The translations under genes and the position numbers were made by a program. From NCBI RefSeq assembly GCF_019711495.1, contig NZ_JAIGNM010000001.1, positions 744,001 through 808,000 of the forward strand: DNA of 64,000 nt. Direction: 5' to 3'. Shown here piece by piece: positions 9,869 through 24,272 of this stretch (within the stretch, counting starts at the first letter, position 1; each line of letters starts with the position of its first letter). Below the pieces are notes generated by a model. It was given only the letters and a program-made list of their open reading frames with translations, ran no database searches and was not told the DNA's origin. Source of the DNA: Qipengyuania xiamenensis (GTDB lineage Bacteria > Pseudomonadota > Alphaproteobacteria > Sphingomonadales > Sphingomonadaceae).

Positions 9869-9870
9869 CT

Positions 9871-10436: not shown

Positions 10437-11027
10437 TCAGCACCAAGGCTCGCGGCGACCCGTCCACGTTCGGGCTAGGCCTTCGCTCACCAGCATATCG
10501 CCGATGGACTGGCCCTTGCGGGTGATGACGCGCAGCTGGCGACCAAAGCGGTCGGTGTCACGGTCGCCGATGCCTTCGACGGAAAATGGACCTTCGTTGA
10601 GTAGATCGCGAAAGCGATATGTCGCTCGCATCCCAAGGTCATATTCGTAGTCGCACTGCGGACTGCTGACTTCAGGCGTATCAATGTCGGCCACTCGTAT
10701 CTTTTTGCCGTTGAGCCAGAGAGTGTCCCCGTCCACCACGCAATTGAAACGGCGGCTATCCTCGCACAACTGGAGGTAGGGCTGCTCTGGGTCGCTGTTG
10801 AATAAGTCCGATGTCGCTTCAGCCGCAGCAGCTTCCTCGGCTGTTCCGTGGCCCATCAAGGTGATCGGTTCCGCTTCGGTGGCGAGCGCAGCACTGTCGG
10901 TTTCGATTACGCTCCACAAGAATGCCGCGCCGATGCCGAGGGCGACCGCGCCACCAAGGACCAGCGGGGCGCTGAGATCGCGCTTTGGCTTGCCGAATTT
11001 CACAACTTTGGGCCGCTTGGTCTTCAT
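10437..11027 (-). CDS. Membrane-anchored thermonuclease (SNase)-like protein
   Basis: A 196-residue protein. One hydrophobic segment (about 20-42, PLVLGGAVALGIGAAFLW) anchors it, with a basic cytoplasmic tail before it (KTKRPKVVKFGKPKR). The soluble part has the staphylococcal nuclease core: VDGDTLWLNGKKIRVADIDTPE with the Ca-binding Asp residues, then the RATYRFRDLL helix, and DRFGRQL with an active-site Arg. Length is typical for bacterial SNase-like proteins. The anchor suggests action in the periplasm on DNA or RNA entering the cell or released outside. It stands alone, between gene-free stretches, with ATG at 11027. Confidence 0.82.
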   Translation of the reverse strand: MKTKRPKVVKFGKPKRDLSAPLVLGGAVALGIGAAFLWSVIETDSAALATEAEPITLMGHGTAEEAAAAEATSDLFNSDPEQPYLQLCEDSRRFNCVVDGDTLWLNGKKIRVADIDTPEVSSPQCDYEYDLGMRATYRFRDLLNEGPFSVEGIGDRDTDRFGRQLRVITRKGQSIGDMLVSEGLARTWTGRREPWC

Positions 11028-11302
11028 TCTCGTATTGCTCGCCTCTTTAGAAAGGTAAGCGCTTATGGTCAGTTAGTAGTGAAGAAGAAGTCAAGGCACT
11101 CAGCTCCTTGAGCGGCCTGTAACAATTGATCAAAGGGTTTTCGCGACGGGCGCACCTCGATCTGACCACAGAAAATTCAGATGTCGATTCAACGCCCGTC
11201 GCAACCATTATACTGGTGTCCAGGCATTCGGATACGGATGTGGCTTTGACGCGGATCCATCGCGCAGATCAAACAACTGTAAAATTCCTGGGAGAAACTT
11301 AT

Positions 11303-11389
11303 TTCCGTAATGGGGGCGTTAGCAGCCCGTCTGCTCCTGACACACTGATAGCTCGGCAAATTGGTCACGAAATGGGTGGGAAGCGGACA
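11303..11389 (+). repeat. Dispersed ~88-bp repeat, copy 0 (diverged)
   Basis: A diverged member of the repeat family: it keeps GGGCGTTAGCAG, ATAGCTCGGCAAATT and ATGGGTGGGAAGCGGACA. It ends two bases before the stop codon of the minus-strand gene at 11392. The gene-free stretch 11028-11302 to its left shows nothing else to me. Confidence 0.6.
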
Positions 11390-11391
11390 TT

Positions 11392-11730
11392 CTATTGGGG
11401 TGTATCAGGGTTGGGTTCCAAAATGGTCCACGTGTGTTCCGAGCCAGCAAATATTGTAGGCGCTTCGATCCCTCTCGCATTCGCTTCAGAGAATATGCAG
11501 TCAGCATAAGGTCGCGCTTGTTCAGGCTCGATGACAAAGTCCACCACGAAGGTCGATGGCCCGTCGAATGGCCTTTCCCGAACAGAAGCGAATTGCGTAG
11601 CTTCGCATTCGTTCACCAGTGCACCGAGATCCTGCTCGTATGTCGGTGCCGAACAGGCAACGGCTGGCAAGCAGACGATAAGAATGAATCCTCTCCAATC
11701 GAGACTACCGGACTGACACTGGCTTAGCAT
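11392..11730 (-). CDS. Hypothetical small lipoprotein
   Basis: Up to 112 residues. A lipoprotein signal is clear in FILIVCLPAVACSAP, with the lipidated Cys about 26 residues from the ATG; the mature part is about 85 residues with cysteines in NECEAT and DCIFSE and a C-terminal TWTILEP. No family is recognised. The start is uncertain: no good ribosome site precedes the ATG at 11730, and the eight residues before the hydrophobic core look too long. Its stop codon lies directly beside a copy of the dispersed repeat. Confidence 0.5.
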   Translation of the reverse strand: MLSQCQSGSLDWRGFILIVCLPAVACSAPTYEQDLGALVNECEATQFASVRERPFDGPSTFVVDFVIEPEQARPYADCIFSEANARGIEAPTIFAGSEHTWTILEPNPDTPQ

Positions 11731-11756
11731 CCAGCGGGGCTAAGCCATCCAGCAAA

Positions 11757-11844
11757 TGTCCGCAATCGGGTCGTTAGCGGAGTGACCGCTCTTGGACCAT
11801 CGCTAGCTCGATGAAACTGTCGCCAGATGGGTGGAAAGCGGACA
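11757..11844 (+). repeat. Dispersed ~88-bp repeat, copy 1
   Basis: Near-consensus copy: starts TGTCCGCAATCGGGTCGTT and ends GGGTGGAAAGCGGACA. The ends are inverted (TGTCCGC/GCGGACA). The last part overlaps the beginning of the 185-bp duplicated sequence. Confidence 0.75.
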
Positions 11845-12012
11845 ACGCGGCCGACTAAAAAAATGCCCCGCCAATGCTGGCAGGGCATTCCGGTTTGCGA
11901 ACCGAAGGGCTCCACTGGAGTTACGGACCTCGGGGGCGTGTGAGGACCAAGAATCTAGATGCAGCCGCAGATGCCATAAGCGGCAGGCCAGCATCTTGTC
12001 TAGAAATTGTAT
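11828..12012 (-). repeat. 185-bp duplicated sequence, copy A (candidate structured RNA)
   Basis: Matches 14700-14884 over the same length with about six differences (roughly 97%). Read on the minus strand it holds a GCCGC...GCGGC hairpin, a CGGTT-CG-CAAACCG hairpin and then an intrinsic terminator. It lies 78 bp after the stop of a response-regulator gene. It may be an independent small RNA or a 3' UTR element; no strong promoter is seen apart from a TACAAT-like -10. Confidence 0.6.
11857..11888 (-). terminator. Intrinsic terminator in copy A
   Basis: On the minus strand, ATGCCCTGCC pairs with GGCGGGGCAT (one wobble) around a short loop and is followed by seven T. It would end the transcript coming from the response-regulator gene or a small RNA. 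Confidence 0.75.
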
Positions 12013-12089
12013 GCAAACGCCATCGCTGACCGCCAGCGATCGGCGCTTCACTCGATGAGCGGATCAGTCACGAACTGGATGAATGGCTG

Positions 12090-12479
12090 TTATTGTTCAG
12101 GACCTTTCATGCCTGCCCGAACCGCTGCTAGTAGATCTCCATCGGCGACTGGTTTCGCCAGCATCACGCTTCGATCGATATTGGCTTCGCTCCAATCAGC
12201 AGAGCTGTCTGCTGAAACAAAGACTAAAGGTAGGTCGTCGCGTTGAGACCGCGCGTGGCGGGCCACATCCCAGCCGTCCGGTCCCTTACCAAGCCTGATG
12301 TCCGTGAGCAGAACCTCGATCCTACTCGCATGGCTGTCGATCAATGCCATCGCTGCGGATGCATCAGACGCGCCAAGCACCTCAAAGCCGGCTTCCTCAA
12401 ACAAGTCGACCAACGCGAGGCGGATCAGCGCCTCGTCTTCAACGACTAGAATGGTAGGGTTTGCGCTCAAAGAAATCAT
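12090..12479 (-). CDS. Single-domain response regulator (CheY-like receiver)
   Basis: A 129-residue stand-alone receiver domain. The acidic pair is VVEDEALIR (Glu14, Asp15), the phospho-acceptor is Asp60 in LLTDIRLG, the switch residue is in VFVSAD, and the conserved lysine is in MLAKPVADGD. No output domain follows. It is of the type common in sphingomonads that work in phosphorelays with HWE/HisKA2 kinases, but no kinase lies nearby, so its partner is elsewhere on the chromosome. Its transcript would run into the 185-bp sequence and its terminator. Confidence 0.85.
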   Translation of the reverse strand: MISLSANPTILVVEDEALIRLALVDLFEEAGFEVLGASDASAAMALIDSHASRIEVLLTDIRLGKGPDGWDVARHARSQRDDLPLVFVSADSSADWSEANIDRSVMLAKPVADGDLLAAVRAGMKGPEQ

Positions 12480-12620
12480 ACTCGCTAGTGCGACCCGCGA
12501 GTTTCTATAAGTTTCTCTCAGGCTGCTTCGTTCCCGCTTTCCTTGGATTGGTCAAAGGTGTTGCAGTTTGGTACGCACGAGCAATTACGATCTATCTCCT
12601 TCGGTACAGAAAGACGCGGT

Positions 12621-12881
12621 ATGAAAAAGGGCCTGGATGATCTGGCTGCACGTGCACGCGATGTCGCAGAAAAGGCAATCGCGGCGAAGGACGGCAAGCC
12701 AACGAGCCACGATGCTTTGCACAAAGCAATGATGGCCTACCGCGCCGCGGCGGTGAAATACATCGCGCATCCCTCGGTTGGCGACTTCGTTCGAGCCGAT
12801 GCTGCAAGATACGAAGGCGAAACCCGCGATGCTGTCGAGAAGATCGCCTCTCTGATCGATCAACTGAACGACTTAAACTGA
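12621..12881 (+). CDS. Hypothetical small helical protein
   Basis: About 86 residues from the ATG at 12621; a TTG 78 bases upstream is in frame but reads through sequence with no coding look. The product is basic at the start (MKKGLDDLAARARDVAEKA) and largely alpha-helical, with no membrane segment and no motif I know. It stands alone on the plus strand between the response regulator and a dispersed repeat. Codon use fits a real gene but the evidence is modest. Confidence 0.4.
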   Translation: MKKGLDDLAARARDVAEKAIAAKDGKPTSHDALHKAMMAYRAAAVKYIAHPSVGDFVRADAARYEGETRDAVEKIASLIDQLNDLN

Positions 12882-12986
12882 CTGATTGTCGGAAGGGTGC
12901 CGGAGGCCCGATTGGACGGGGGTCGCAATAAGCCTCCGGCTGATGCTTATATGAGGGCATCTCTTCGGTAACTGGTGGAGTCTGTA

Positions 12987-13077
12987 TCCGTTCCGAAAAC
13001 GGGGCGTTAGCGGCTGGTCCGCTCCTGGCACATCGCTAGTTCGGCAATTTGGGCGCGAACTGGATGGAAAGCGGTCC
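12987..13077 (+). repeat. Dispersed ~88-bp repeat, copy 2
   Basis: Diverged copy holding GGGGCGTTAGCGGCTGGTCC, CATCGCTAGTTCGGCAA and CTGGATGGAAAGCGGTCC. It lies directly before the CDF transporter gene, so it may carry or disturb its promoter. Confidence 0.65.
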
Positions 13078-13116
13078 TTGGTTGGACTCGAAGACGAATG
13101 GCATTATCGGCGCCAC

Positions 13117-13716
13117 ATGGCAGATTGCGGATGCGGCCCTACTGAAATCGAGACGAAAGCCCAGCAGCGGGCTCTATGGCTGGCGCTTGTCCTGAATGCC
13201 GTAATGTTCTTCGTGGAAGTTGCTTCTGGGCTCTACGCGGATTCGACCAGCCTTGTAGCGGACGGTCTGGATATGCTCACGGATGCGTCGGTCTATGCGG
13301 TCGCTTTGATGGCCATAGGACGAAGCAATGCCTTTAAGGCCCGCGCCGCAACTTTGAGCGGAGCTTTGCTACTGATTGTAGGCATAGGGGTCGTTTTCGA
13401 AGCCGTAAGGCGCGTCTTCGTTGGAGCAGAACCTGTCGGTGTCTTGATGATTATAGTCGCCCTAGTGGCACTCGCCGTGAACACCTACGTGCTCAGACTA
13501 CTGCAAAGGCAGCGCAGCGACGAAGTCCACATGCGCGCGGCTTGGATTTTCACTCGTGCCGACGTGGTCGCCAATGTTGCAGTGATTGTGTCGGGTGCGT
13601 CGGTCTTACTTACCGGCGTGATCTACTTTGATCTTCTGGTCGGTGCAGCCATTGGCCTCTTTGTCATGAGGGAAGCAATGGAAATACTGCGGGAAGCAAG
13701 ACAAGCTGACCGTTAG
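13117..13716 (+). CDS. CDF-family cation transporter
   Basis: About 199 residues with five to six membrane segments, of the short cation diffusion facilitator type without a C-terminal cytoplasmic domain. MADCGCG at the start offers two metal-binding cysteines. TM2 carries VADGLDMLTD, the expected acidic pair. In TM5 the usual HxxxD reads FTRAD, so the histidine is replaced, as in other members of this short subgroup that I recall. Expected role: export of a divalent metal across the inner membrane in exchange for protons. ATG at 13117 is preferred over a TTG at 13078 that lies inside the repeat. Confidence 0.8.
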   Translation: MADCGCGPTEIETKAQQRALWLALVLNAVMFFVEVASGLYADSTSLVADGLDMLTDASVYAVALMAIGRSNAFKARAATLSGALLLIVGIGVVFEAVRRVFVGAEPVGVLMIIVALVALAVNTYVLRLLQRQRSDEVHMRAAWIFTRADVVANVAVIVSGASVLLTGVIYFDLLVGAAIGLFVMREAMEILREARQADR

Positions 13717-13730
13717 GGCAGCTAACTTAA

Positions 13731-13818
13731 CGTCCGCAATCGGGTCGTTACCCGCCCGTCTGCTCTTGGCACGGCGCTAGCTCGGTGAAGCTGTCACGAG
13801 TTGGGTGGTCAGCGGACA
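13731..13818 (+). repeat. Dispersed ~88-bp repeat, copy 3
   Basis: CGTCCGCAATCGGGTCGTTA at the start and GGTGGTCAGCGGACA at the end. It supplies the last three codons and the stop of the minus-strand gene 13809-14186. Confidence 0.7.
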
Positions 13819-14186
13819 CCGAGGTGATCTGCGAGACTAGCCACAGCGCTCCCAAAACTCTCTCTGAAAAAATGGGCGATCTCGCCGACCTCTATTGCCT
13901 CGGCGTCTGATCCAGGCTCGAAGCGGGCACGATCTACATCACGACCGACCTTCACTTGGCTGCCACCCAAAACGTGATCTGACTGGCTTTCGATACCCAG
14001 AAAGCTAATCACAGCATCATCGGTCGATTCACCGCCTCCCACGATCCATAGGTCCAAGATTTTGCGGCAGGCTAAGATCAACTCAGCTGGTTGAAGCTCC
14101 TCACCTGCAATACGTCGCTGCAAATTGCCGACTACATCCTGCAGCTCAGCGCAGGCCGCATCACGTTGGGGCTTATTGATCGACAT
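13809..14186 (-). CDS. Hypothetical protein
   Basis: A 125-residue soluble protein with no signal or membrane segment. The first half looks helical (QRDAACAELQDVVGNLQRRI), followed by LACRKILDLWIVGGGESTDD. I recognise no family. Its final codons and TGA lie inside a copy of the dispersed repeat, so the repeat insertion may have truncated or redefined the C-terminus. It stands between the CDF transporter gene and a small membrane protein gene, with repeats on both sides, a pattern like separate cassettes. Confidence 0.5.
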   Translation of the reverse strand: MSINKPQRDAACAELQDVVGNLQRRIAGEELQPAELILACRKILDLWIVGGGESTDDAVISFLGIESQSDHVLGGSQVKVGRDVDRARFEPGSDAEAIEVGEIAHFFRESFGSAVASLADHLGVR

Positions 14187-14212
14187 GACCGGGAGATTAG
14201 CCGCAGAACTAA

Positions 14213-14300
14213 GGTCTGCAACCGGGTCGTTAGCGGCTGGTCCGCTTTTGGCGCATCGCTATCTCGGCAAGTAGGTCGCGAATTGGGTGGAAAGCAGACT
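14213..14300 (+). repeat. Dispersed ~88-bp repeat, copy 4
   Basis: GTCTGCAACCGGGTCGTTAG to AATTGGGTGGAAAGCAGACT. Both ends have changed together (GTCTGC/GCAGAC), so the inverted ends remain paired: a compensatory change that points to a selected secondary structure or a recombination end. Confidence 0.7.
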
Positions 14301-14346
14301 CCTCGAGAATAGCGGGGGCGAAGACTATGAGTTGCTAATGGCTTGA

Positions 14347-14574
14347 TCAGCCATGGTGGTGAATTCCATGCTTTTTCTTGTATCGCCACTGGTAGATACC
14401 CAGCCCGATCATAGAGAGGGCCGAGAGTTGAAAAGCGACGAAGGCTCCGAGATACAGGGTTGGGTTGCTGGTCTCATCGAGAAAGTAAACCACCGCGAAC
14501 GTAGCCAGGAATAGGAGAGCCGAAACCCGCCCCCAGAACATGATCTTATGATATTTTTCGAGCTCTGGTGTCAC
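14347..14574 (-). CDS. Small two-TM protein
   Basis: A 75-residue protein with two hydrophobic segments (about 16-31, VSALLFLATFAVVYFL, and 41-61, LGAFVAFQLSALSMIGLGIY) and a basic, histidine-rich tail (RYKKKHGIHHHG) that may bind metal and should face the cytoplasm. The start is a GTG at 14574; AGAG precedes it. No family is recognised. A repeat copy lies 46 bp beyond its stop, as for several other genes in this part of the element. Confidence 0.5.
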   Translation of the reverse strand: MTPELEKYHKIMFWGRVSALLFLATFAVVYFLDETSNPTLYLGAFVAFQLSALSMIGLGIYQWRYKKKHGIHHHG

Positions 14575-14627
14575 CGATCATCTCTTGTCTAAACGTTTGA
14601 TGACGCTGAAAATTGCAGGAATGGGTG

Positions 14628-14716
14628 GTTTCCGCAATCGGGTCGTTCTCAGCCGGGGCGCTTTTGGCACATGCCTATTTCGGAAAATCAGTCACGCACT
14701 GGGTGGAAAGCGGACA
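14628..14716 (+). repeat. Dispersed ~88-bp repeat, copy 5
   Basis: Contains TTTCCGCAATCGGGTCGTT and CACTGGGTGGAAAGCGGACA and continues directly into the second 185-bp sequence, as copy 1 does into the first. Confidence 0.7.
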
Positions 14717-14884
14717 ACGCGGCCGACTAAAAAAATGCCCCGCCATTGCTGGCAGGGCATTCCGGTTTGCGAACCGAAGGGCTCCACTGGAGTTACGGAC
14801 CTCGGGGGCGTGTGAGGACCAAGAATCTCTATGCAGCCGCAGACGCCATAAGCGGCAGACCTGCATCTTGTCTAGAAATTGTAT
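14700..14884 (-). repeat. 185-bp duplicated sequence, copy B (candidate structured RNA)
   Basis: Second copy of the sequence at 11828-12012, same length. It lies 110 bp beyond the stop of the anti-sigma gene, again 3' of a regulatory gene on the minus strand, and ends in the same terminator. The rest of the gene-free stretch 14575-14994 holds repeats only. Confidence 0.6.
14729..14760 (-). terminator. Intrinsic terminator in copy B
   Basis: Same hairpin as at 11857-11888 with the loop altered by one base and the T-run kept. It would end the sigma/anti-sigma transcript. Confidence 0.75.
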
Positions 14885-14913
14885 AAAACCGCCATTCAGG
14901 ACGGCGCTCAATT

Positions 14914-14973
14914 GATCCGCTTTTGGCGCCCCGTTCACTCCGTGAAAGCGTCGTCAAAGGGGGGAAGCGGACA
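14914..14973 (+). repeat. Dispersed repeat, partial copy 6
   Basis: Only the inner and right parts remain: GATCCGCTTTTGGCGCC and GGGGGGAAGCGGACACC. It ends 22 bp from the stop of the anti-sigma gene. Confidence 0.5.
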
Positions 14974-14994
14974 CCTTGAAGCTCGATGGGGAGC

Positions 14995-15738
14995 TCAATC
15001 CGACAACCAGCCCCCGGAGATAGTCGCAGCTTCCTCTTCCGAACTGAAAGCGTCCCCATTCATCACTTGATCTACATAGGCATTGATGAGTGCGAGGTCG
15101 GATGCCGACGCGGTCTGGTAGCCCTGCGTATCACGGGTGGTTTCCGAGCGCAGAGCGAAGTCGACGCGCCAGGCATCCGCCTCGCGGCAGGCCACCGTAT
15201 TAATGGTCCTGCCATCTCCGGTGATTTGTGCCTCGCGGCAGGGCTCACCACCTCTGTTCGTGAAGCTCAGAACGGGCCGCAATTCCGCACCGTTCTCACC
15301 AATTTCAATCCTCCCGTTACTCGGTGTCGCGTCGAAGGCGGCAAACAGTGGATCGCCCGCATAGATGCGCGATGCCAGATAGGGAGAATACGGAGTTGGT
15401 GCGGCATCGCCGCCGGTCGCCAGGAATTGCGAGCCAACCCCCAAACCTACCACCAGCGCCAGCGAAGCAGCGAGTGCGGTGGGCCAGTATGTTGAAATAC
15501 GCTGCGTGGAAAAAATCGCCCCAGTGCCGTCCAACATCGAAAGAACGGATGCCGGCACCGGTCTGTTTTCGATAACCGAAGCGGCGTGGCGAACTGTTTC
15601 GTTGGCCTGTTCGAATTCCTCCAGCCGCGCCCGAAGGGCCGGATCATTATTTAGCGCAGTTCCTATCTCGGCGGCTTGCGACGCGCCGAGTTCGCCGTCG
15701 ATATATGCCGAGAGCATTTCGTCCGTGATCTTTGTCAT
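14995..15738 (-). CDS. Anti-sigma factor, membrane-spanning
   Basis: A 247-residue protein whose first 60 residues have the look of an anti-sigma domain (DEMLSAYIDGELGASQAAEI), without the zinc HxxxCxxC motif. One membrane segment at about 84-105 (YWPTALAASLALVVGLGVGSQ) leads to a periplasmic domain of about 140 residues with two cysteines (EPCREAQ and VACREAD) that could form a disulphide. The ATG overlaps the sigma stop by four bases, so sigma and anti-sigma are made together. Expected role: hold the sigma factor at the inner membrane until a periplasmic signal releases it. Confidence 0.82.
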   Translation of the reverse strand: MTKITDEMLSAYIDGELGASQAAEIGTALNNDPALRARLEEFEQANETVRHAASVIENRPVPASVLSMLDGTGAIFSTQRISTYWPTALAASLALVVGLGVGSQFLATGGDAAPTPYSPYLASRIYAGDPLFAAFDATPSNGRIEIGENGAELRPVLSFTNRGGEPCREAQITGDGRTINTVACREADAWRVDFALRSETTRDTQGYQTASASDLALINAYVDQVMNGDAFSSEEEAATISGGWLSD

Positions 15739-16283
15739 CTCTTGCTCCTGTCGAACTGCACGACATTGTTCGTTTCGCTTTCTTGGTGACTTCCGGGGCC
15801 GGTCGCCTCATATTCAACCAGCGCCTTCCTTGCGCGGGCGAGCCGGCTCATTACCGTGCCAACCGGAACACCGATCAGGTCGGCCGCTTCCCGGTACTTC
15901 ATGCCCTCGACCGTTACGAGCATAAGGACTTCCCGGAACTCTTGCGGGAGCCTCGCGATCGCCGCTTCCGCATCGACCAACGCCATGCGCCCTTCCATCT
16001 CTCCGTCGACAGCGACGGCGTCGGGCATATCATCGATATTACCTGCAGCGCGCACTCGGCGAGACCGAACCTCGTCGACCCACCGGTTGCGACAGACCCT
16101 CAGGGCCCAGCGCAGGGTATCTGCATCCACCGGAGCTCCCCGCGTAAGAAGACGCTCCACCGTATCGTGCAGGAGGTCGTCCGCATCATAAGCATTGCCC
16201 GTCAGCGAATGGCAATAACGTCGAAGCGGCGTCAGCAACGCAGCAAGCTCAGCCTGGAGCCGGGGTGACGCTTTACCCTGCAT
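15735..16283 (-). CDS. ECF RNA polymerase sigma factor
   Basis: A 182-residue sigma-70 family factor of the ECF type: region 2 is in AYDADDLLHDTVERLL and the WALRVCRNRWVDEVRSRR helix; region 4 is in LPQEFREVLMLVTVEG and the helix-turn-helix YREAADLIGVPVGTVMSRLARA. It directs RNA polymerase to promoters with a GGAAT-type -35. A GGGAATAA/CGTC promoter stands directly before its own ATG, so it is probably autoregulated. The CGTC is only eight bases from the start codon, which would give a leaderless or nearly leaderless message. Confidence 0.9.
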   Translation of the reverse strand: MQGKASPRLQAELAALLTPLRRYCHSLTGNAYDADDLLHDTVERLLTRGAPVDADTLRWALRVCRNRWVDEVRSRRVRAAGNIDDMPDAVAVDGEMEGRMALVDAEAAIARLPQEFREVLMLVTVEGMKYREAADLIGVPVGTVMSRLARARKALVEYEATGPGSHQESETNNVVQFDRSKR

Positions 16284-16291
16284 ATTTTGGA

Positions 16292-16318
16292 GACGTGCCG
16301 ATGGACTTGTTTATTCCC
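16292..16318 (-). promoter_or_regulatory. Putative ECF-type promoter P1
   Basis: On the minus strand GGGAATAA (16318-16311), a 15-nt spacer, then CGTC (16295-16292). The same two elements with the same spacer occur before the gene at 19693. It would make the sigma/anti-sigma operon self-activating. Confidence 0.65.
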
Positions 16319-16349
16319 AAGCTCGCAAAAAAAAGTGCTCCAAGAACGC

Positions 16350-17900
16350 TCACGGACGGATCAAGCCGTACCCATAGGTATCGTCGCGCCCCTTCTCGCC
16401 TAGGTCGAGGGCGTTGCGGGCAAGGACTCTCAGTTGGCGACGGAAGTTGCCACAGCCATTGCCACCACTATCGCAGCGCAGCAGGAATGCGGCGGACACA
16501 AAAGGTGCGGCAAAGGATGTGCCGGTTTCGGAATGATACCCATCCGTGCCCGCTTGCGCGCTCATGACGTCGACGCCAGGTGCGGAAAAGTCGACATGGC
16601 TTCCACGCCCGGCCAGGCGATAGACGCGGTTCCCACGCCCGACAGCGGTGACTGCGATCACTTCCGGATAGGCAGCAGGATAGGCGGGTTCGGCTGTCGG
16701 GCCGCCGTTTCCGACAGCCGCTATGATCACCATGCCCCTGTCCTGCGCCCTTTTGATCGCTGCTCTCAGGATGGCGTTAGGCGGACCCGATAGGCTCAAG
16801 TTGGCTATGGCAACGCGGTTTTCAAGCAGCCAGTCGATCGCCTGAACCAGATCGGCTGCGGTCGTCGTCACACCCGTTTCGGGAGCCGTATTGAAGACCG
16901 ACGCTGCAAAAAGCTTGGCCTCGGGAACCAGTCCCTCGAAGCCGCTGCCTTTACCCACGAGGATAGAGGCCACAGCTGTTCCGTGACCGGTAGGCTCCGA
17001 CGCATACCTGGCAAGAAAACTGCGCGTCTCGATCTGCCTTTCGGCAAGCGCCGGGTGGGTCAGATCGAGGCCAGTATCAATGAGACCGATCCGGCTGTTC
17101 GCGACCCGGGAAGCGGTGCGACGGGGAAGAAAGGAGGCGGGACGATAGAGGCCTGTCCCGGCGCTTTCGCCACTGTTTCCGTTGGGACGGTAGATATGAT
17201 TGTTATCGGCCTCTACGTTCGAGCGCCCCATACCGAGCCGTTCGAGTTCGCTTTCGAAATCCTGGCCCGCCGTGGCGACCCGGACGAGCACCTTGCCGAG
17301 GCTCGAAAGCTCGGTTCTTTCGACGATCTTGAATCCGTTTGCCTCCAGACGATCGGCGGCATCGGGATCCACCAGTACAAGCTTTTCACCGAAACGGATT
17401 TCGCGGCCGTTCTCGTCGGTTGCGATCTCGATTTCGCGAGTATCCGATGAACCCGAGCGCTCTTCATCCCGGTCCTCATCATCGTCTTCACGCGCGTCGG
17501 CGTCATCTTCTTCGTCTTCGAAGGCTTCCTCCTCGTCTTCGAGAGCCTCCTTTTCGGCCTCGATAGCCTCCTCTTCGGCCTCGAGAGCGTCTTCCTCGAT
17601 CTCCTCGCCAGTATCGGCTGCCTCTTCTGCCAGGTCCTCGGCTTTCTCGGCAGCTTCCTCAGCAGCCTCTGCCGCATCTTCAGCCGCGTCATCGGCAGCC
17701 TCTGCGGCGGCTTCGGCAGCTTCTTCGGCAGCCTCCTCAGCTGCTTCTTCAGCCGCTTCTTCCGCCGCCTCTTCGGCCGCCTCTTCGGCAGCCTCTTCAG
17801 CCGCATCCTCGATGTCGTCGTCGAAAGCCTGAGCGGAAACCGGGGCCGCCACCAAGCATCCAAGCACCGCTGCGAAGAGGATCGGGAGAAGTGTTTTCAT
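16350..17900 (-). CDS. S8 (subtilisin-like) serine peptidase with acidic E/A-rich helix
   Basis: A 516-residue exported protease. Residues 1-24 form a signal peptide ending in PVSAQA. Residues about 31-148 are almost only Glu, Ala and Asp: a run of (EEAA) units and then EEEA/EDE segments, likely a long charged helix. The peptidase domain has Asp275 (IGLIDTGLDL), His306 (TGHGTAVASIL), oxyanion Asn398 (AAVGNGG) and Ser462 (GTSFAAPF), so it should be active. The region about 150-230 may be an inhibitor-like prodomain. MKTLL at 17900 is chosen over a frame start at 17948 because of the signal. It lies beside the sigma/anti-sigma genes. Confidence 0.9.
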   Translation of the reverse strand: MKTLLPILFAAVLGCLVAAPVSAQAFDDDIEDAAEEAAEEAAEEAAEEAAEEAAEEAAEEAAEAAAEAADDAAEDAAEAAEEAAEKAEDLAEEAADTGEEIEEDALEAEEEAIEAEKEALEDEEEAFEDEEDDADAREDDDEDRDEERSGSSDTREIEIATDENGREIRFGEKLVLVDPDAADRLEANGFKIVERTELSSLGKVLVRVATAGQDFESELERLGMGRSNVEADNNHIYRPNGNSGESAGTGLYRPASFLPRRTASRVANSRIGLIDTGLDLTHPALAERQIETRSFLARYASEPTGHGTAVASILVGKGSGFEGLVPEAKLFAASVFNTAPETGVTTTAADLVQAIDWLLENRVAIANLSLSGPPNAILRAAIKRAQDRGMVIIAAVGNGGPTAEPAYPAAYPEVIAVTAVGRGNRVYRLAGRGSHVDFSAPGVDVMSAQAGTDGYHSETGTSFAAPFVSAAFLLRCDSGGNGCGNFRRQLRVLARNALDLGEKGRDDTYGYGLIRP

Positions 17901-18038
17901 CGGTTTCACGCTTTTCAATTTTTCCGGCCCAGGCCTGTCGGCCCGCATGGGATATCACATGCCGGCCGGAAAATGTTTAAAGTCTTGCTCGCCTGACGGC
18001 GGCGAGAAGTGATCCGCACCCTGCTGTGAGGTTGCAAA

Positions 18039-18044
18039 ATTCCC
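18039..18044 (-). promoter_or_regulatory. Weak -35-like element before the protease gene
   Basis: GGGAAT on the minus strand, 139 bp before the protease ATG, resembles the -35 of P1 and P2, but no CGTC follows at 15 nt. Noted as a weak candidate only. Confidence 0.2.
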
Positions 18045-18070
18045 GCACGCCGTTTGCGAAGTAGGTCCGG

Positions 18071-18976
18071 TCAGAGTTCAAAGAGAACCCCAGCGCTCAG
18101 ACGGTGCTCGTTGTAGTCTGCCGAGGGCAGGTTCGAATTGCGATTCGTATAACGATAGCCCGTTTCGATGCTGAGACTTTCGGTAACCGGCACCGTCAGT
18201 TCGGCTTCGCCACGAAGACGCTCTTCGGTACGGATCTCGTTGATCGAAGGCGTGACCGCCTTGTAGTCGCGATCGCGATAGTCAACGCCCAGCTGAAGAC
18301 GAGTGCCGCCGCGGCCACCGGCAAGCGGAATACGCCAATCAGCTCCGATCACGAAGCCGTCGTAGTCGAGCGCAGGATCGAAAGCATCTTCATCCTCCCA
18401 GCGGCCAGCAACTGAGAAGAAGCCGGCGTTATCGTTGTAGAATTTGAAGATGCTCGCGCCCAATTGGTTGGCGGTGGCGTCACGCTCGTCGAGAGTCGAG
18501 AAGTCCTTATCGGCATACTGGTAGTATGCGCGTGCATAGAGCTCATCGGCCACAAAACCCGAGATACTCGGGGTGATGCTGTGCATGTCGAATAGGGCGT
18601 CGCCGCCGAGCCGGTAATGCGAGAACGCATAGCGCGCGCCGACACGTGGGCCGATGACGCGGGTTCCCAAATCGACACTGGCCGTATGCGACTGAAGGTC
18701 GAACTCGTCTGAATCGGTGTAGAGCGTTTGGCCGAAGCTGTAACCGAACTCCAATTCGAACGCATCGGTGTCGATCGCCTCGAATTCGGCATCGGCACCC
18801 AGCCTGAACGCAAGATCCCCTGCATCAACCTGCGTATCGATTTCATCGACAACCAGCTGGCTGTCGTAGAATGTTCCCGCTTCGAGCTCGAGCGAGAATT
18901 GATCATCTGCAAAGGCGCTGGTCGAAACCAGGATGGTCGAGCAAGCCAGGGCGCGGGCGACTGAAGATACTTTCAT
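18071..18976 (-). CDS. Outer-membrane beta-barrel protein (DUF560/Slam-barrel-like)
   Basis: A 301-residue protein with a signal peptide (about 1-23, ending STSAFA) and then alternating beta-strands to the end, with the C-terminal LSAGVLFEL typical of outer-membrane barrels. I count about 12-14 strands. The pattern recalls the barrel of surface lipoprotein assembly modulators (DUF560) but there is no TPR domain, so this is a tentative match. It lies 76 bp after the acidic coiled-coil gene in the same orientation and so may be co-transcribed from P2. Possible role: an outer-membrane conduit or anchor for the secreted acidic protein. Confidence 0.7.
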   Translation of the reverse strand: MKVSSVARALACSTILVSTSAFADDQFSLELEAGTFYDSQLVVDEIDTQVDAGDLAFRLGADAEFEAIDTDAFELEFGYSFGQTLYTDSDEFDLQSHTASVDLGTRVIGPRVGARYAFSHYRLGGDALFDMHSITPSISGFVADELYARAYYQYADKDFSTLDERDATANQLGASIFKFYNDNAGFFSVAGRWEDEDAFDPALDYDGFVIGADWRIPLAGGRGGTRLQLGVDYRDRDYKAVTPSINEIRTEERLRGEAELTVPVTESLSIETGYRYTNRNSNLPSADYNEHRLSAGVLFEL

Positions 18977-19051
18977 TGTAAAACTCCCAATATTCCAAAG
19001 GCGCGCCACATGCGAGCGGCGCGCCTCCCGGGACCAGAAACGAGCGCCGAC

Positions 19052-19693
19052 TTAGTCGTCGACTTCGTCCTCAGCTTCTTCTTCGGCAGCTTCTTCAGCA
19101 GCTTCCTCAGCTGCTTCACGAGCGGCCTCTTCAGCTTCTTCGGCTGCTTCGCGAGCTTCTTCTTCGGCTTCTTCAGCGGCCTCGCGGGCCTCTTCTTCTG
19201 CTTCCTCAGCGGTTTCGCGAGCATCTTCTTCAGCGTCGGCGAGATCGTCGTCGTAGTCTTCGTCTCGATCGTCGTCGTAGTCTTCGTCTCGATCATCGTC
19301 GTCGTAATCTTCGTCCCGATCGTCGAGATCTTCCTGCAAATCTTCTTCGATCTCTGCGAGTTCCTCGGCGAGTTCCGCTTCTGCCTCGGCAAGCTCCTCG
19401 TCTAGCTCGGCCATTTTCTCATCGAAGTCGGCCTGCGCTTCTGCAATATCCTCTGCCGACGCGGTCGCGTCATTCAGGACATCATCGAGCTCGCGCTGCG
19501 CTTCCGCACGCTCGCCTTCGATCTCCGCAACTTCCTCTTCGAATTCCGCGACAGCTTCGGCTGCATCGGCATCGTATTCGTTTTGGATTTCGGCGGATTC
19601 GTCCTCCGAACCCTGCGCGGCGAGAGGACTCGATGCCAGTCCCGCTGCAGCGACAAGCGCAAGAAGCGAGGTGCTGTTTGCGATCATTTTCAT
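19052..19693 (-). CDS. Secreted, extremely acidic coiled-coil protein
   Basis: A 213-residue protein. A signal peptide (about 1-27, LALVAAAGLASSPLAAQ) is followed by a Glu/Ala/Asp-rich helix. DRDEDYDD occurs three times at about 125-150, and a hendecad REAAEEAEEEA is repeated three to four times at about 170-203; period 11 is typical of right-handed coiled coils. The net charge is strongly negative, so metal or calcium binding, or a space-filling role in the periplasm, is possible. AAGGAACG before ATG 19693 fixes the start. The P2 promoter lies about 60 bp upstream. No known family is recognised. Confidence 0.8.
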   Translation of the reverse strand: MKMIANSTSLLALVAAAGLASSPLAAQGSEDESAEIQNEYDADAAEAVAEFEEEVAEIEGERAEAQRELDDVLNDATASAEDIAEAQADFDEKMAELDEELAEAEAELAEELAEIEEDLQEDLDDRDEDYDDDDRDEDYDDDRDEDYDDDLADAEEDARETAEEAEEEAREAAEEAEEEAREAAEEAEEAAREAAEEAAEEAAEEEAEDEVDD

Positions 19694-19752
19694 TCTTCGT
19701 TCCTTTCGTTTCCTGACACGTGATGCGCACAATTCCGCGCATTCCAGACGAA

Positions 19753-19779
19753 GACGAAAAGCTGGGGCCTATTATTCCC
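19753..19779 (-). promoter_or_regulatory. Putative ECF-type promoter P2
   Basis: GGGAATAA (19779-19772), 15-nt spacer, CGTC (19756-19753) on the minus strand: the same elements and spacing as P1. It gives a leader of about 50 nt before the acidic coiled-coil gene. Confidence 0.65.
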
Positions 19780-19851
19780 GTAAGGCCAAAAAATTTCGAA
19801 ATGAACTGACTGTTCGCCATCGAAAAGCACGAGTTCGCTTGCGTTCCCGCA

Positions 19852-19940
19852 TGTCCGCAATCGGGTCGTTAGCCGACCGACCGCTCTCGGCTGGCGTTAT
19901 GCCCCACAAATCTGTCATGAACTGGGTGGGAAGAGGACAA
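19852..19940 (+). repeat. Dispersed ~88-bp repeat, copy 7
   Basis: TGTCCGCAATCGGGTCGTTA to GAACTGGGTGGGAAGAGGACA. It ends 17 bp from the stop of the hydrolase gene at 19957 and separates it from the ECF module. Confidence 0.75.
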
Positions 19941-19956
19941 AAGGCTGATCTTCGCA

Positions 19957-21126
19957 TTATTGTCTTGCTTCGGTGTCCGGTAAGCTCATCACCTCAATCA
20001 GCCATTGCAGTGATTGTTGCGCCGGCGCGCCGCCGACGTTGAGGATTGCAAACGCCAATCTGTCCAGTGGACCCGAAAGCGCGGCATAAGCCGTGAAATC
20101 GCCGGTGCCTCCCACGTGGAAGCTGACGGGCGCCCCGTTCAGCTCCGTGACGCCCCAACCCAGCGCACTGCCGCCTTCCTTTGTCGGTCGATGCAGGCGT
20201 CGTGCTGTATCCGGGGCGATGAAGTCCGATTCCCCATTCAACGCGCACAATTGAGCCTGCAGATAGCGCGCATATGCCAGAGGGCTGAGCGAAACATTGC
20301 CGGCGGCTTCCAAGAACGGCGGTATGGGGGGATCGGCTTCTTCGTAAGCCACGACCACATCTCCCGAGACATAATGGCCCCAAGGCTGCGCTCCGGTCAT
20401 GTGGCGCGGTTCACCCAGGGAGGCGTCGAGCGCCAGCGGTTCGAACACCTCCGCTTCCAGAAGCGTCTCGAGAGGAGTGCCGGTGCCGTGCTCCAAGAGA
20501 TACCCGGCAATCACGTAGCCGGCGTTGGAGTATGAAGTTGCCTCGCCCGGTGTCGTCTCCAGCGGCTGCATCAGGAACCATTCGGCTGCGGCACGGCGAA
20601 TTTCTTGTTTGGCTCCTTCGAACGGGGGCACCCGCTCCAGATCGCTGCCTTTGTCGAACGCAGGCATGCCGCTGCTATGCGCAAAAAGCTGAGCGAGCGT
20701 AATATCTGCCTTGTCCGGATGTTTTTGAGCCGCTTCAGGCCAGATTTCCTCCACCGTCGAATCCAGCGAAAGCACGCCACGGTCATGGAGCCTTGCGGCA
20801 ACGGTCGCCAGCATCGACTTGGCATTCGAGCCGATATTGAATCGCGCCGAGGAGCCGATTTGCTGTTCGCCTCCGACTTTCCGCAGCCCGCCCATCTGCA
20901 CATCGATCGACTTGCAGCTACCCACTGCGATGGCGAAGGCCGGGACATCCGGATCCTCGCTCAGTTGCGTTGCGAAGGCGCTGGCGAGGCCCTCAGGCGT
21001 CGTTGACGGCCTTTCGACTTCGGCTGCAGGACCATTAGCGAGTGTAGCGGTGCTGGCGCACAGCATGGTCGCAGCCCCAAGCAGGAAGTATGTCGGTCGC
21101 AAGAAGGTCCCCCTCGAATGTTTCAT
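19957..21126 (-). CDS. Secreted beta-lactamase-family serine hydrolase
   Basis: A 389-residue protein with a signal peptide or anchor (about 10-30, PTYFLLGAATMLCASTATLA). It has the class C fold motifs: SNAK (Ser100-Lys103), YSN (Tyr199-Asn201) and, near the C-terminus, HVGGTGD as the third motif. Members act as D-aminopeptidases, esterases or beta-lactam hydrolases in the periplasm; which one cannot be told. ATG 21126 is preferred because the signal starts there. It is a single gene, with repeat copies on both sides, not joined to the ECF module by an operon. Confidence 0.82.
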   Translation of the reverse strand: MKHSRGTFLRPTYFLLGAATMLCASTATLANGPAAEVERPSTTPEGLASAFATQLSEDPDVPAFAIAVGSCKSIDVQMGGLRKVGGEQQIGSSARFNIGSNAKSMLATVAARLHDRGVLSLDSTVEEIWPEAAQKHPDKADITLAQLFAHSSGMPAFDKGSDLERVPPFEGAKQEIRRAAAEWFLMQPLETTPGEATSYSNAGYVIAGYLLEHGTGTPLETLLEAEVFEPLALDASLGEPRHMTGAQPWGHYVSGDVVVAYEEADPPIPPFLEAAGNVSLSPLAYARYLQAQLCALNGESDFIAPDTARRLHRPTKEGGSALGWGVTELNGAPVSFHVGGTGDFTAYAALSGPLDRLAFAILNVGGAPAQQSLQWLIEVMSLPDTEARQ

Positions 21127-21274
21127 TCGGTCGCAAAGCAAGAACCAGCTCTCCGCTCAATAACGCGCCGATCAACCGTCGATAGGCTTCGACAGTGGGA
21201 CTGGTCGAAGCATGATCGACCGATTTTCGGAGCCGAAAGGCAGTTTCTTGGCCGGGAACTCCAAGTGCAAAAAA

Positions 21275-21360
21275 GTCCGCAATCGGGTCGTTAGCTGGCG
21301 GTCCGCTCTTGGCACATCGCTAGCTCGGTGAATCTGTCGTCAGATGGGTGGATTGCGGTC
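21275..21360 (+). repeat. Dispersed ~88-bp repeat, copy 8
   Basis: GTCCGCAATCGGGTCGTTAG to AGATGGGTGGATTGCGGTC. It touches the stop codon of the minus-strand gene 21362-21793. Confidence 0.75.
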
Positions 21361-21361
21361 A

Positions 21362-21793
21362 TTAGCTCCGCCGCATTACTCTGGGAGGGCCGACGCTAAT
21401 CACATCCACAATGTGATTCAGGGTTGTCAGGCACCAGTGCTCTAGAGGGCCGGGGTATTCGTCATCCGCGAAGGTTGTCTCAGAGACGTAGCGTTGAAAG
21501 GCGGTGCCATACCGTCTGTCAAGGTGATCGCCTAAGGGCGGCTCGCCCTCCTCTGCCTTCCAATAGCTTTCATCTCTAACCGCGTAGGCCACATAGCTGG
21601 CCCACCTAATTTCGAAATGGCGGGAGGCGTCTGTAATTTCTATCGGTCGCCCTTCGCCTAGGTCGTGACCCGCAAACTCAATGGCGGTGGATTCCCCGAG
21701 CAGTCCCTCCGCCACCACTATCCGAAGTTCATTCTCTGATGGTTCGCCAATCTCTGTTACATAGAGATTGAGCGACCCCTTCGGAAATTCCAT
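21362..21793 (-). CDS. Hypothetical protein
   Basis: A 143-residue soluble protein, acidic, with no signal. GGAGGG seven bases before ATG 21793 gives a firm start. Segments such as IEITDASRHFEIRWASYVAYAVRDESYW and CLTTLNHIVDVIS suggest a small alpha/beta fold; similar proteins, as I recall, are encoded near toxin immunity or are unassigned cargo proteins, but I cannot place it. It ends next to a dispersed repeat and starts after another, so it has the look of a single-gene cassette. Confidence 0.6.
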   Translation of the reverse strand: MEFPKGSLNLYVTEIGEPSENELRIVVAEGLLGESTAIEFAGHDLGEGRPIEITDASRHFEIRWASYVAYAVRDESYWKAEEGEPPLGDHLDRRYGTAFQRYVSETTFADDEYPGPLEHWCLTTLNHIVDVISVGPPRVMRRS

Positions 21794-21845
21794 CACACAC
21801 CCTCCAAATTCGCATGAAGCCAGTTGACTAGCTGTTTGGTCTCAA

Positions 21846-21920
21846 TGTCCGCAATCGGGTCGTTAGCGGAATGACCGCTTTTCGGTGGAATGACCCATAA
21901 ACCGACTGTCCGCAATCGCT
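21846..21920 (+). repeat. Dispersed repeat, copy 9 (shortened)
   Basis: TGTCCGCAATCGGGTCGTTAG is intact; the right half is lost and replaced by a second TGTCCGCAATCG start at about 21908. It lies beyond the stop of the gene at 21992. Confidence 0.65.
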
Positions 21921-21991
21921 CCCAAAGTCCGACATAGCGGCAAAACCATTCTGGAGGAAAAGTGATGAGGGCGGTTGCCTTTCAACCGCTG

Positions 21992-23173
21992 TCAGGCGCT
22001 GACAGCGGCTCGGCGTCGGATTTCCTGTAGATTGGAGGTCAGGTCGGCGAAGGAATTGCCAATATCTGAGCCCAGGTGACGTTGTTCGAATACTTCGAGG
22101 CAAGTGGAAGTCTGATGAATATCGTCGGCTCCGCAGCCTATGACCCGTTCATCAAGAAGGCCACCCTCAAGCGCGAAAACCAAATTTCCTACGTCGCGCA
22201 CTCCCATCGACCGAACCTCCTCACCGAAGCAAAATTCAAACTCTTTGATTGCTCGGCGACCGATCCTCGTGTGCATGTCGTAGGCGAAGTAGGGATAAGA
22301 GCCGATCAGCGTTGGTCTTGGTGTCTCACCGCGAACAGTGCACAATAGGGGGTTTTGGTCGGCGAATTTTGCCAGCAATACGTAGGGTAACGCCAAGCTG
22401 TCTCGACAACGGCTGAGCCCCATCCGAACGATGTAGTGAAAGATCAGGGGTGCGCTCTGGTCGATCAGCAACCTCAGCAGCCCTCGTTGTCCTTGCCCTG
22501 CAATCGAGACCAGTTGTCGGCTGCGCAGTCGGTCAGTTCCATGGAGCAGCCAGAGCGAAACGAGTTGCCTTGTCGATCCAAAGTCCTCGCTTTGGACTAT
22601 GTTCGACAGAGCTACTGCATCGAGGCCGGAAACCCGTTCGGCAATCTTGCCGGCCTCATTGTCATATTCGACGAGGCTGAGCATTTCACATGACAGTCGG
22701 CTTTTGATGGCTCTGCTCATTTGAACAGCGAGGTGAACGGCGAGCCTTTCCTCGCCAAGAGATCGTCGGCGCAGCTTGTTGCCGAGAATGGCTAGGGTCG
22801 TAGCGATTAATTTCAGGTCGCCGAGACCCACATCTTCAAGCGCGATGATGGCAAGTCGGCGAAACGTATGGTCGGCATCAATGCGGACACCGCTGCGAAC
22901 GTATCGCTCAGCCAACTCACTATGGCCACGACGGATGCACTTTTGGAGTGCGCTCGTCGTCAACCATTTGTCTGCGGTGTAGAGTGAATCGTGCTGAAAG
23001 GGACGCACCCGGCTTTCGAAAACTGCGCTTTCGACTTCGTCCCAGAGAAGCCTATCGATCGATCTTAGAATCGAGTCTTTGACGACACCTTCGCTGTCGA
23101 TTGCTGGCTCCGTCACTGCCCTGATCAAGCACTGCTGACCTAGCTGGTGGATCGATTCCCACACGTCGAACAT
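21992..23173 (-). CDS. Unknown protein with RarA/MgsA C-domain-like segment
   Basis: A 393-residue, mostly helical, soluble protein. The segment LQKCIRRGHSELAERYVRSG followed by RRLAIIALEDVGLGDLK (about 75-120) resembles the C-terminal clamp-loader-like part of the RarA/MgsA ATPases, but there is no Walker motif and no ATPase domain. AAGGAG lies before ATG 23173. The codon use is less GC-biased than in the core. It may be a replication- or repair-linked protein of the mobile element or a defence gene; no function is assigned. Confidence 0.65.
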   Translation of the reverse strand: MFDVWESIHQLGQQCLIRAVTEPAIDSEGVVKDSILRSIDRLLWDEVESAVFESRVRPFQHDSLYTADKWLTTSALQKCIRRGHSELAERYVRSGVRIDADHTFRRLAIIALEDVGLGDLKLIATTLAILGNKLRRRSLGEERLAVHLAVQMSRAIKSRLSCEMLSLVEYDNEAGKIAERVSGLDAVALSNIVQSEDFGSTRQLVSLWLLHGTDRLRSRQLVSIAGQGQRGLLRLLIDQSAPLIFHYIVRMGLSRCRDSLALPYVLLAKFADQNPLLCTVRGETPRPTLIGSYPYFAYDMHTRIGRRAIKEFEFCFGEEVRSMGVRDVGNLVFALEGGLLDERVIGCGADDIHQTSTCLEVFEQRHLGSDIGNSFADLTSNLQEIRRRAAVSA

Positions 23174-23289
23174 ACAAATCTCCTTGTTTTATAAGGAGAA
23201 ACGTATTCATTGACTCACTGCTTGGAAGTGAAATTAATTGCACGACTCGGCAACAGCGGCAGAGATAACAAATGAGCAACTATGTCTTG

Positions 23290-23703
23290 TCAAAACCACG
23301 CAGCAGTTTCGATGAAGCGGGAACTCGCACAAAACTTGTTCCAGCCGCTCTGAAATTCAGCAGGCCCCATACTCTCTAGCGCCGCAGTTGTCGGATGTGC
23401 CACAAAACGTTCGAAGCCAACCATTCCCCCGAAACCATTTCTCGCGTTGACCTCGCCGCAAAATACCACCCCACCATCTGAGTTTGGGTGCTCATAGATT
23501 TTCACCGATCGGTAAATCGCGCTGGAAGGATCGCGTAGTCGTTCTTCGATCTTGTACTTCGACAAGGTAGCAAACTGAGCAAGTGTCGCTGGGTCACGTA
23601 AATCCGGATTAGACTCGCTATCAGGCTCTCCGCTACCGCAAGCACTCGTAAAAAGTGTGAATGTCGCCAAAAGACAGATGCGGCGGGCTTTCGTGGTGGT
23701 CAT
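23290..23703 (-). CDS. Hypothetical lipoprotein
   Basis: A 137-residue protein with a lipoprotein signal, LLATFTLFTSACGSG, cysteine near residue 22, and a mature domain with IEERLRDPSSAIYRSVKIYE and VFCGEVNARNGFGG. That sequence type (DPSSA.Y followed by a CGEVN.KN.FGGY) is frequent in small, unnamed periplasmic proteins of proteobacteria. Two more cysteines near the C-terminus (NKFCASS) may pair with VFC. GAGGGAG precedes the ATG. A separate gene, not overlapping its neighbours. Confidence 0.65.
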   Translation of the reverse strand: MTTTKARRICLLATFTLFTSACGSGEPDSESNPDLRDPATLAQFATLSKYKIEERLRDPSSAIYRSVKIYEHPNSDGGVVFCGEVNARNGFGGMVGFERFVAHPTTAALESMGPAEFQSGWNKFCASSRFIETAAWF

Positions 23704-23834
23704 ATATCAATCTCCCTCGCTAACCCCAATTCTCATCGCCACGATAACCAGCTAGCCACCGATGCATAGTCCATTTTCGACTATTCGATTTTGGCCTTTA
23801 GCTGATGTGCCCTCCAAGGAGGGACGTTCGGCCG

Positions 23835-24074: not shown

Positions 24075-24272
24075 CTCCGGTCGCTGTTTCCATCACGCCT
24101 CATCGTGGCCAGAAGGTTGTCTAGTAGCTGGCACAAATTTCGCCGATCTAGAGCTACAGGGACACAGGATTAGGCAGCTGCGACACACCCGGCGAGTCCC
24201 CAATCATCTTCTCCGTATTATCTCGAATTTTTAGTTAAATTCTGACAACGGGCCAAACCTTGTTCGCAGGGA

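Follow-up and report, generated by a model that had tools for sequence, protein, structure and literature searches.

Does an extracytoplasmic function (ECF) sigma factor encoded by Qipengyuania xiamenensis control the genes beside it and, if so, what kind of system do they form? The locus lies within a 64,000-nucleotide stretch of contig NZ_JAIGNM010000001.1 (the window, whose positions serve as coordinates) and encompasses genes for the sigma factor, an anti-sigma factor, a subtilase, an outer-membrane barrel and a highly acidic protein, together with two matching promoter-like sites. A sequence-only reading had proposed a self-activating sigma factor that drives its neighbours, and this proposal withstands both comparative tests applied to it at the sequence level, namely co-occurrence of the genes and retention of the motif upstream of them. 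We consider the locus to represent a self-contained ECF26-type envelope-response cassette with a probability of about 0.72, its switch appearing to turn on just itself and three neighbours, the subtilase, the barrel and the acidic protein. The link between switch and gene set is very likely real, since distant bacteria have both the same switch signal and the same genes, and the designation as an envelope system is suggested by export signals, the barrel and the membrane-type anti-sigma factor. Genome comparison supports the gene association, the conservation of the promoters, a predicted local regulon of two sites, and carriage on an island. The parts of the module are as follows.

19753..19779, minus strand: predicted ECF26-type promoter of the acidic-protein operon (GGGAATAA-N15-CGTC; motif match, kept in relatives)
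19052..19693, minus strand: acidic 11-residue-repeat protein (213 amino acids, net charge -85, N-terminus resembling an export signal)
18071..18976, minus strand: predicted 14-strand outer-membrane beta-barrel, OmpG/CymA-like (Pfam PF13505 and PF10082; AlphaFold2 model)
16350..17900, minus strand: subtilase (S8) with signal peptide and (EEAA)n acidic segment (Pfam PF00082, 9.5e-35)
16292..16318, minus strand: predicted ECF26-type promoter of the sigma gene (GGGAATAA-N15-CGTC; 8 nucleotides before the sigma ATG)
15735..16283, minus strand: ECF sigma factor, ECF26-like (Pfam and NCBIfam matches)
14995..15738, minus strand: membrane anti-sigma factor (periplasmic part with Cys167 and Cys184; RseA_N, zf-HC2)

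The sigma and anti-sigma genes share a 4-nucleotide overlap, and the subtilase open reading frame (ORF) opens at 17948, the likely start being the second ATG at 17900. Pfam confirmed the two genes previously placed between the sites, a subtilase with its own (EEAA)n segment and an outer-membrane barrel; the RseA_N and zf-HC2 scores of the anti-sigma factor lie slightly below the gathering cut-offs.

Promoter sites and gene association in relatives

The two GGGAATAA-N15-CGTC sites that the sequence-only reading had located on the minus strand, at 16318-16292 and 19779-19753, are both present there and are the only matches in the window, where shuffling gives an expectation of 0.05 and none of 100 shuffles reached two. 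When spacers of 13-17 nucleotides were allowed, the 2,796,236-base genome yielded the same two sites alone (the reversed control also yielded 2), and the exact form GGAATAA-N15-CGTC was found at 2 genomic sites as compared to 0 control sites. The looser GGAATA-N16-CGTY, which is the -35/-10 form common across families, had 8 genomic matches, including the two module sites, as compared to 2 reversed matches.

Sigma, anti-sigma, subtilase and barrel genes, sought together in relatives, were found to co-occur in 20 modules from 19 genomes and seven families, one of these outside the order. The survey was built on 36 barrel loci for which the surroundings were read (L058, L059, L060, L061, L063 and L094-L124), where sigma plus anti-sigma were present in 17 and the subtilase in 18 within the stretch read; the window, L151 and L152 are counted in addition to these 36 and complete the 20 modules, while L118 (a contig end with pieces of a subtilase and no sigma seen) was counted as lacking sigma, and L153 and L154 do not enter the count, as neither was judged to be a module. 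The subtilase adjoins sigma in all 20 modules, a neighbouring protease being characteristic of the RpoE6 branch of ECF26. Six close modules (the window, L058, L059, L060, L061 and L063) have the same gene order, their five genes all lying on the same strand; the remaining 14 have a subtilase gene that is transcribed divergently from sigma. The acidic gene lies beside the barrel in ten of these divergent modules (L101, L102, L103, L107, L111, L113, L119, L120, L151 and L152), in L112, L114 and L116 it is replaced by an RTX-repeat protein with long acidic stretches encoded after the anti-sigma gene, and no acidic partner was seen on the 4.5-kb contig of L104. These Asp/Glu-rich RTX-type proteins are encoded at 2610-4007 in L114, 12238-13767 in L116 and 13371-15464 in L112, and the Pfam scan, which covered L114 and L116, found PF00353 in both.

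The motif is conserved upstream of the orthologues: strict GGAATA-N16-CGTY precedes sigma in 19 of the 20 modules, the window included, which agrees with the ECF26 consensus and predicts recognition by this sigma factor. All six close modules retain GGAATAA-N15-CGTC at both sites; upstream of the acidic gene the window's site recurs in L058, L059, L060, L061 and L063, and the sigma site of L060 and L061 lacks the third G. Across 45 loci (the 36 barrel loci plus nine trio loci described below; 660,143 nucleotides), 40 GGAATA-N16-CGTY sites were counted as compared to a single reversed-control site, and 38 of the 40 have a module gene downstream: 16 a sigma gene, 14 an acidic or RTX gene, at distances of up to 170 nucleotides, and 8 a divergent subtilase. 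The remaining two, in L097 and L131, have no module gene downstream; beyond this count, L151 and L152 each contribute a further sigma site. Among ten genomes scanned for GGAATAA-N15-CGTC, the five that bear modules hold 14 sites, 12 of them inside modules. A chance promoter match was rejected on the basis of the shuffles, the 38 of 40 sites at module genes and the exact-form genome count relative to its control. One genome (G033) carries two module copies on short contigs (L058 and L059), each with both promoters, and in L151 (4278-6893) and L152 (6826-9414), from the family outside the order, the acidic gene is preceded by genes that, by eye, resemble those of a histidine kinase and a response regulator.

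Every one of the 60 genus genomes has some matching ECF sigma factor, and an orthologue (62-88% identity, the next best being ~43%) was found in the own genome, in G058 and twice in G033. Among 397 genomes drawn from the family, two had an orthologue at E 1e-45, counting the own genome, and among 396 drawn from the order there were three at E 1e-40, the own genome and G359 being two of them. Of 24 sigma loci in a scan of named genomes those of Erythrobacter vulgaris (L033) and Sphingomicrobium astaxanthinifaciens (L034) were full-length orthologues, and these two species also have the module. Barrel relatives are distributed more broadly, in 31 of 396 order genomes (own included) and 17 of 84 genera; a profile search found matches in 12 of 337 class genomes, the strong ones besides the own being G874 (E 1e-96) and G771 (E 1e-93), of a family outside the order, with all others at E 1e-22 or weaker.

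Several observations weigh against the cassette as a fixed unit. The sequence-only reading had named scattering of the genes in relatives as grounds for doubt: they are not scattered in sigma-bearing modules, but for 19 of the 36 barrel loci the stretch read, which in some is cut short by a contig end, contains no sigma gene, and in these 19 no site precedes the acidic gene or the barrel. Seven of them (L094, L095, L098, L099, L106, L110 and L117) keep the acidic gene next to the barrel, and therefore this pair can occur without the sigma factor. Sigma orthologues are patchy, being present in only 3 of the 60 genus genomes. The sigma site of L101 reads CGTG, the sole exception among the 20; six of the 14 modules with divergent subtilase (L101, L102, L104, L107, L151 and L152) lack a site of its own for that gene, L104 and L107 carrying the sigma site alone; and the second GGAATA-N16-CGTY site of L151 and L152 precedes the response-regulator-like gene rather than directly the acidic gene. 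In the five of the ten scanned genomes that have no sigma orthologue, GGAATAA-N15-CGTC nevertheless occurs at 5 scattered sites, and over all ten the reversed control reached 4. Lastly, a subtilase/sigma/anti-sigma trio in the same genome (L125, at approximately 1,029,461-1,031,949 of G000:C1; sigma 39% identical) and eight genus counterparts have no GGAATA-N16-CGTY site near their genes. A GGATGA-N16-CGTT sequence upstream of the paralogous trio appeared promoter-like and was dropped, as it seems, by eye, to be coding sequence.

The switch and the predicted effectors

When compared with NCBIfam, the sigma factor scored below the cut-off of its best match, PRK12511 (126.5 as compared to 185), and the generic sigma70-ECF was the one model passed among the matches listed. 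The gap between CGTC and the sigma ATG is exactly 8 nucleotides in all six close modules, where no Shine-Dalgarno sequence was seen by eye before this ATG; the acidic gene, by contrast, has a leader and a Shine-Dalgarno-like AAAGGA. Elsewhere the gap is 10 nucleotides (L102, L104, L151 and L152), 11 (L103, L111, L113, L119 and L120), 12 to a GTG (L107), 18 (L112), or 6 or 18 (L114 and L116). At ECF26 promoters of Sinorhizobium meliloti the distance from CGTY to the mapped start is 7 nucleotides for SMc01022, 8 for SMa0142, 8 for rpoE4 and 9 for sorT (PMC6180224, Table 1), where the last letter of each listed promoter is taken as the mapped start on the grounds that the lower-case letters, confirmed by two methods, stand last, the bold start marks being absent from the text used. 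From the 8-nucleotide gap and this 7-9 nucleotide spacing, transcription in the close modules is therefore predicted to start at the A of the AUG, plus or minus one base, and the sigma mRNA is predicted to be leaderless there. Leaderless mRNAs have been described in Zymomonas mobilis, 119 of them with leaders of no more than 5 nucleotides (PMC7566282). It speaks against extending this prediction that the mapped start of S. meliloti rpoE6, the promoter of which is not ECF26-like, lies well upstream of the gene (PMC6180224), and a leaderless sigma mRNA is therefore not general to ECF26. For the close modules, the gap of 8 nucleotides between promoter and AUG, being fixed and conserved, makes a leaderless mRNA for this regulator a clear prediction.

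The anti-sigma factor has the layout of ECF26-type anti-sigma factors, in that its gene is co-directional with sigma and its product comprises an N-terminal anti-sigma domain, a transmembrane segment (a hydrophobic stretch called by eye) and a periplasmic C-terminal domain. Cys167, Cys184 and Trp190 are invariant in both alignments of 15 sequences each, the first of which takes in relatives from S. medicae and Shinella that retain the Cys-Cys-Trp pattern, and the periplasmic part with its invariant cysteine pair is the likely sensor. The predicted structure is of moderate confidence (predicted local distance difference test, pLDDT, 78.4); its N-terminal 60 residues match ChrR weakly (Z 4.8, root-mean-square deviation (rmsd) 3.0 over 58 residues), and for the periplasmic part a PDB search at E<=0.001 found nothing, while the top VIA-align hit (Z 5.3, rmsd 5.0, 98 residues) is too weak to assign its fold. 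A sulfite-sensing reading of the cysteine pair was kept as a lead only, neither 'disulfide' nor 'disulphide' being found in the available text of PMC3511301.

As regards the effectors, the previously proposed label of an acidic coiled-coil protein had to be revised: the repeat is mainly of 11 residues, with a period of 4 close behind, and is not that of a plain heptad coiled coil. A period of 11 gave the strongest self-identity in 17 of 19 acidic partners tested, with L094 favouring 4 and L098 favouring 8; the test omitted the acidic genes of L099, L102, L151 and L152 and the RTX proteins. The AlphaFold2 model of the barrel (pLDDT 91.7, alignment of 31 rows) has 14 long strands and superimposes on CymA (Z 21.9, rmsd 3.4 over 265 residues) and OmpG (Z 20.9, rmsd 3.6 over 259 residues), at 12% identity in each case, and a 14-strand porin fold is thereby predicted. 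The subtilase is a peptidase of family S8 (Pfam PF00082) with an Asp-His-Ser triad, Asp291, His322 and Ser478 (ORF numbering), invariant in 18 aligned sequences, the window included.

Taken together, these features suggest a scheme in which the membrane anti-sigma factor would hold sigma at rest until its periplasmic part senses a signal, upon which sigma would presumably be released by proteolysis and use the GGAATA-N16-CGTY promoters. The sigma/anti-sigma mRNA would then start at the AUG or a few bases away from it and undergo leaderless translation, and the second output, in this genome, would be an operon of the acidic repeat protein, the barrel and probably the subtilase. We would guess that the acidic protein, once exported, acts at the envelope as a polyanion to which cations, or proteins that are cationic or misfolded, bind; the subtilase would then trim or digest the bound material, and small products would pass through the barrel. 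This polyanion-plus-protease role is the leading guess for the effectors.

Island carriage and alternative explanations

Three further features place the module in a wider genomic context.

7868..28011, strand not assigned: genomic island bearing the module (20,144 bp; direct repeat, empty sites, GC content)
26108..27967, minus strand: tyrosine integrase of the island (PF00589, 3.8e-10)
28014..28099, minus strand: tRNA-Tyr, attachment site of the island (ARAGORN)

The integrase gene adjoins the tRNA-Tyr gene, a 29-nucleotide copy of the tRNA end forms a direct repeat (7868-7896 and 28012-28040; 26 of 29 identical), and the GC content of 0.557 is lower than that of the left (0.626) and right (0.628) flanks; the region is therefore taken to be an island. 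The flanks are contiguous in two relatives, G013 (left match ending at 719205, right beginning at 719206) and G037 (3863 and 3864), and the 20,144-bp insert is thus absent from both. A complete signal-response unit, promoters included, can by this evidence move between bacteria. Plasmid carriage was considered and rejected, as all 693 plasmid records matching sigma (E 1e-10) were below 60% identity and the barrel had no plasmid match (E 1e-5). A beta-lactamase-family gene adjacent to the module (19957-21141) was excluded from it because no counterpart was present in the five fetched close-module loci L058, L059, L060, L061 and L063, of which L058 and L059 are short contigs.

Other island cargo includes resolvase-like and nuclease-like genes. 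The Sphingomicrobium locus L034 has a gene for a tyrosine recombinase ~0.5 kb ahead of its acidic gene. A 91-nucleotide repeat occurs in eight copies in the 36 kb searched, all within the island (11299-11389, 11754-11844, 12987-13077, 13728-13818, 14210-14300, 14626-14716, 19849-19939 and 21271-21361); TGTCCGC is found close to one end of the reference copy and GCGGACA at the opposite end, and the repeat may be an element resembling a miniature inverted-repeat transposable element. The island also contains a 265-nucleotide direct repeat, 87% identical, at 11759-12023 and 14631-14895.

Such carriage invites the explanation that the co-location is incidental, the genes having hitch-hiked on an island, and the two promoters chance matches. 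In its favour, the 20-kb island does hold other cargo besides the module, and no more than 3 of 60 genus genomes have the set. It is contradicted by the gene order and sites, which are the same in other genera at other locations, and by the 38 of 40 sites that precede a module gene in different families, and we regard it as scarcely credible. A different objection accepts the switch and concerns its output: the acidic repeat protein could be an exported hydrophilin akin to late embryogenesis abundant (LEA) proteins, produced under desiccation, osmotic or stationary-phase stress, with the subtilase a housekeeping enzyme. The predominance of the 11-residue period would fit such a protectant, as would apolipoprotein-type Pfam matches below the cut-off in two of six non-RTX acidic partners scanned, and the targets of S. 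meliloti RpoE6 overlap the general stress regulon (27 of 40; PMC6180224). Pfam gives no LEA match, however, the window protein having none of LEA or apolipoprotein type at E 0.1 and the best relative reaching 35.6 bits as compared to a cut-off of 90; the acidic partner in L112, L114 and L116 is an RTX-type protein; and a two-site regulon is unlike a general stress regulon. This alternative is, on balance, unlikely.

The locus could, alternatively, be a secretion cassette and a split counterpart of the subtilase autotransporters, in which the acidic protein or the subtilase leaves across the outer membrane through the barrel. The barrel adjoins the acidic gene in 16 of the 20 modules, and in L112, L114 and L116 it lies beside an acidic-rich subtilase (30-47% Asp plus Glu). 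Passenger and barrel are nevertheless encoded by separate genes, the barrel model spans the mature protein with no extra folded domain, and its best structural matches are the diffusion porins CymA and OmpG (Z ~21-22), with EstA and NalP, which are autotransporters, further down the Foldseek ranking (TM-score 0.37-0.38); we consider a secretion role unlikely. We return, then, to the ECF26-type envelope-response cassette, for which a bolder elaboration may be envisaged: a mobile, self-sufficient signalling island with a thiol-sensing ECF26 pair and a leaderless sigma mRNA, by which the switch would be translated through an initiation route other than that of its effectors, and whose exported polyanion bait and polyanion-tagged subtilase would capture and digest cationic attackers such as antimicrobial peptides, the porin clearing the fragments. 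In this full form the idea is quite unlikely.

Comparison with known systems

The sequence-only reading could match the locus to no named system, a view that no longer holds for its core: by every feature tested, namely promoter, anti-sigma layout and neighbouring protease, the sigma-protease-promoter core is of the ECF26 kind at the sequence level. RpoE6 of S. meliloti has been assigned to group ECF26, with a -35 GGAATA/-10 GT consensus, and the divergent serine protease SMa0142 is widely conserved in this group and among the most prominent RpoE6 targets (PMC6180224). The module resembles RpoE6-EcfR6/SMa0142 in the combination of sigma, membrane anti-sigma and an adjoining S8 protease, and a GGAATA/CGTY promoter is found at the protease both in S. 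meliloti and in relatives of the module. It differs in that 20 kb around rpoE6 shows no acidic repeat protein or barrel, in the co-directional subtilase of the window as compared to the divergent SMa0142, and in a sigma mRNA predicted to be leaderless as compared to the mapped leader of rpoE6. On pSymA, an (SSSN)n reading frame that follows ecfR6 was weighed as a possible counterpart of the exported repeat protein; it was discarded, as the annotated S. medicae gene at the like position lies on the opposite strand.

The sulfite response of the ECF26 factors RpoE1/RpoE4 is similar in the subgroup named, the anti-sigma gene adjoining sigma and self-activation, whereas its output is sulfite oxidation (PMC3511301) and no sulfite-oxidation gene was found in this cassette. 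Nearer by, the L125 trio and its eight counterparts share three homologous genes with the module, the subtilase being divergent, but have neither barrel nor acidic repeat protein; in all nine (L125-L133) the gene after the subtilase encodes a conserved protein that is rich in G, S and A, looks exported and bears SGSxNAQL-like motifs. The barrel is akin in predicted fold to the monomeric 14-strand porins OmpG and CymA (Z 20.9-21.9 over ~260 residues, 12% identity), and a literature search, with most subscription papers outside its reach, found no paper on acidic-protein/barrel partners. What is new relative to these systems is the dedicated output of an acidic repeat protein and a predicted 14-strand OmpG/CymA-like barrel, the exact 8-nucleotide distance from CGTC to ATG in six modules, the invariant cysteine pair of the anti-sigma factor and carriage on a tRNA-Tyr island. 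ECF26 factors of RpoE6 type are widely conserved together with a protease, and yet microarray work left the role of RpoE6 undefined (PMC6180224); the private regulon predicted here puts names to candidate effectors.

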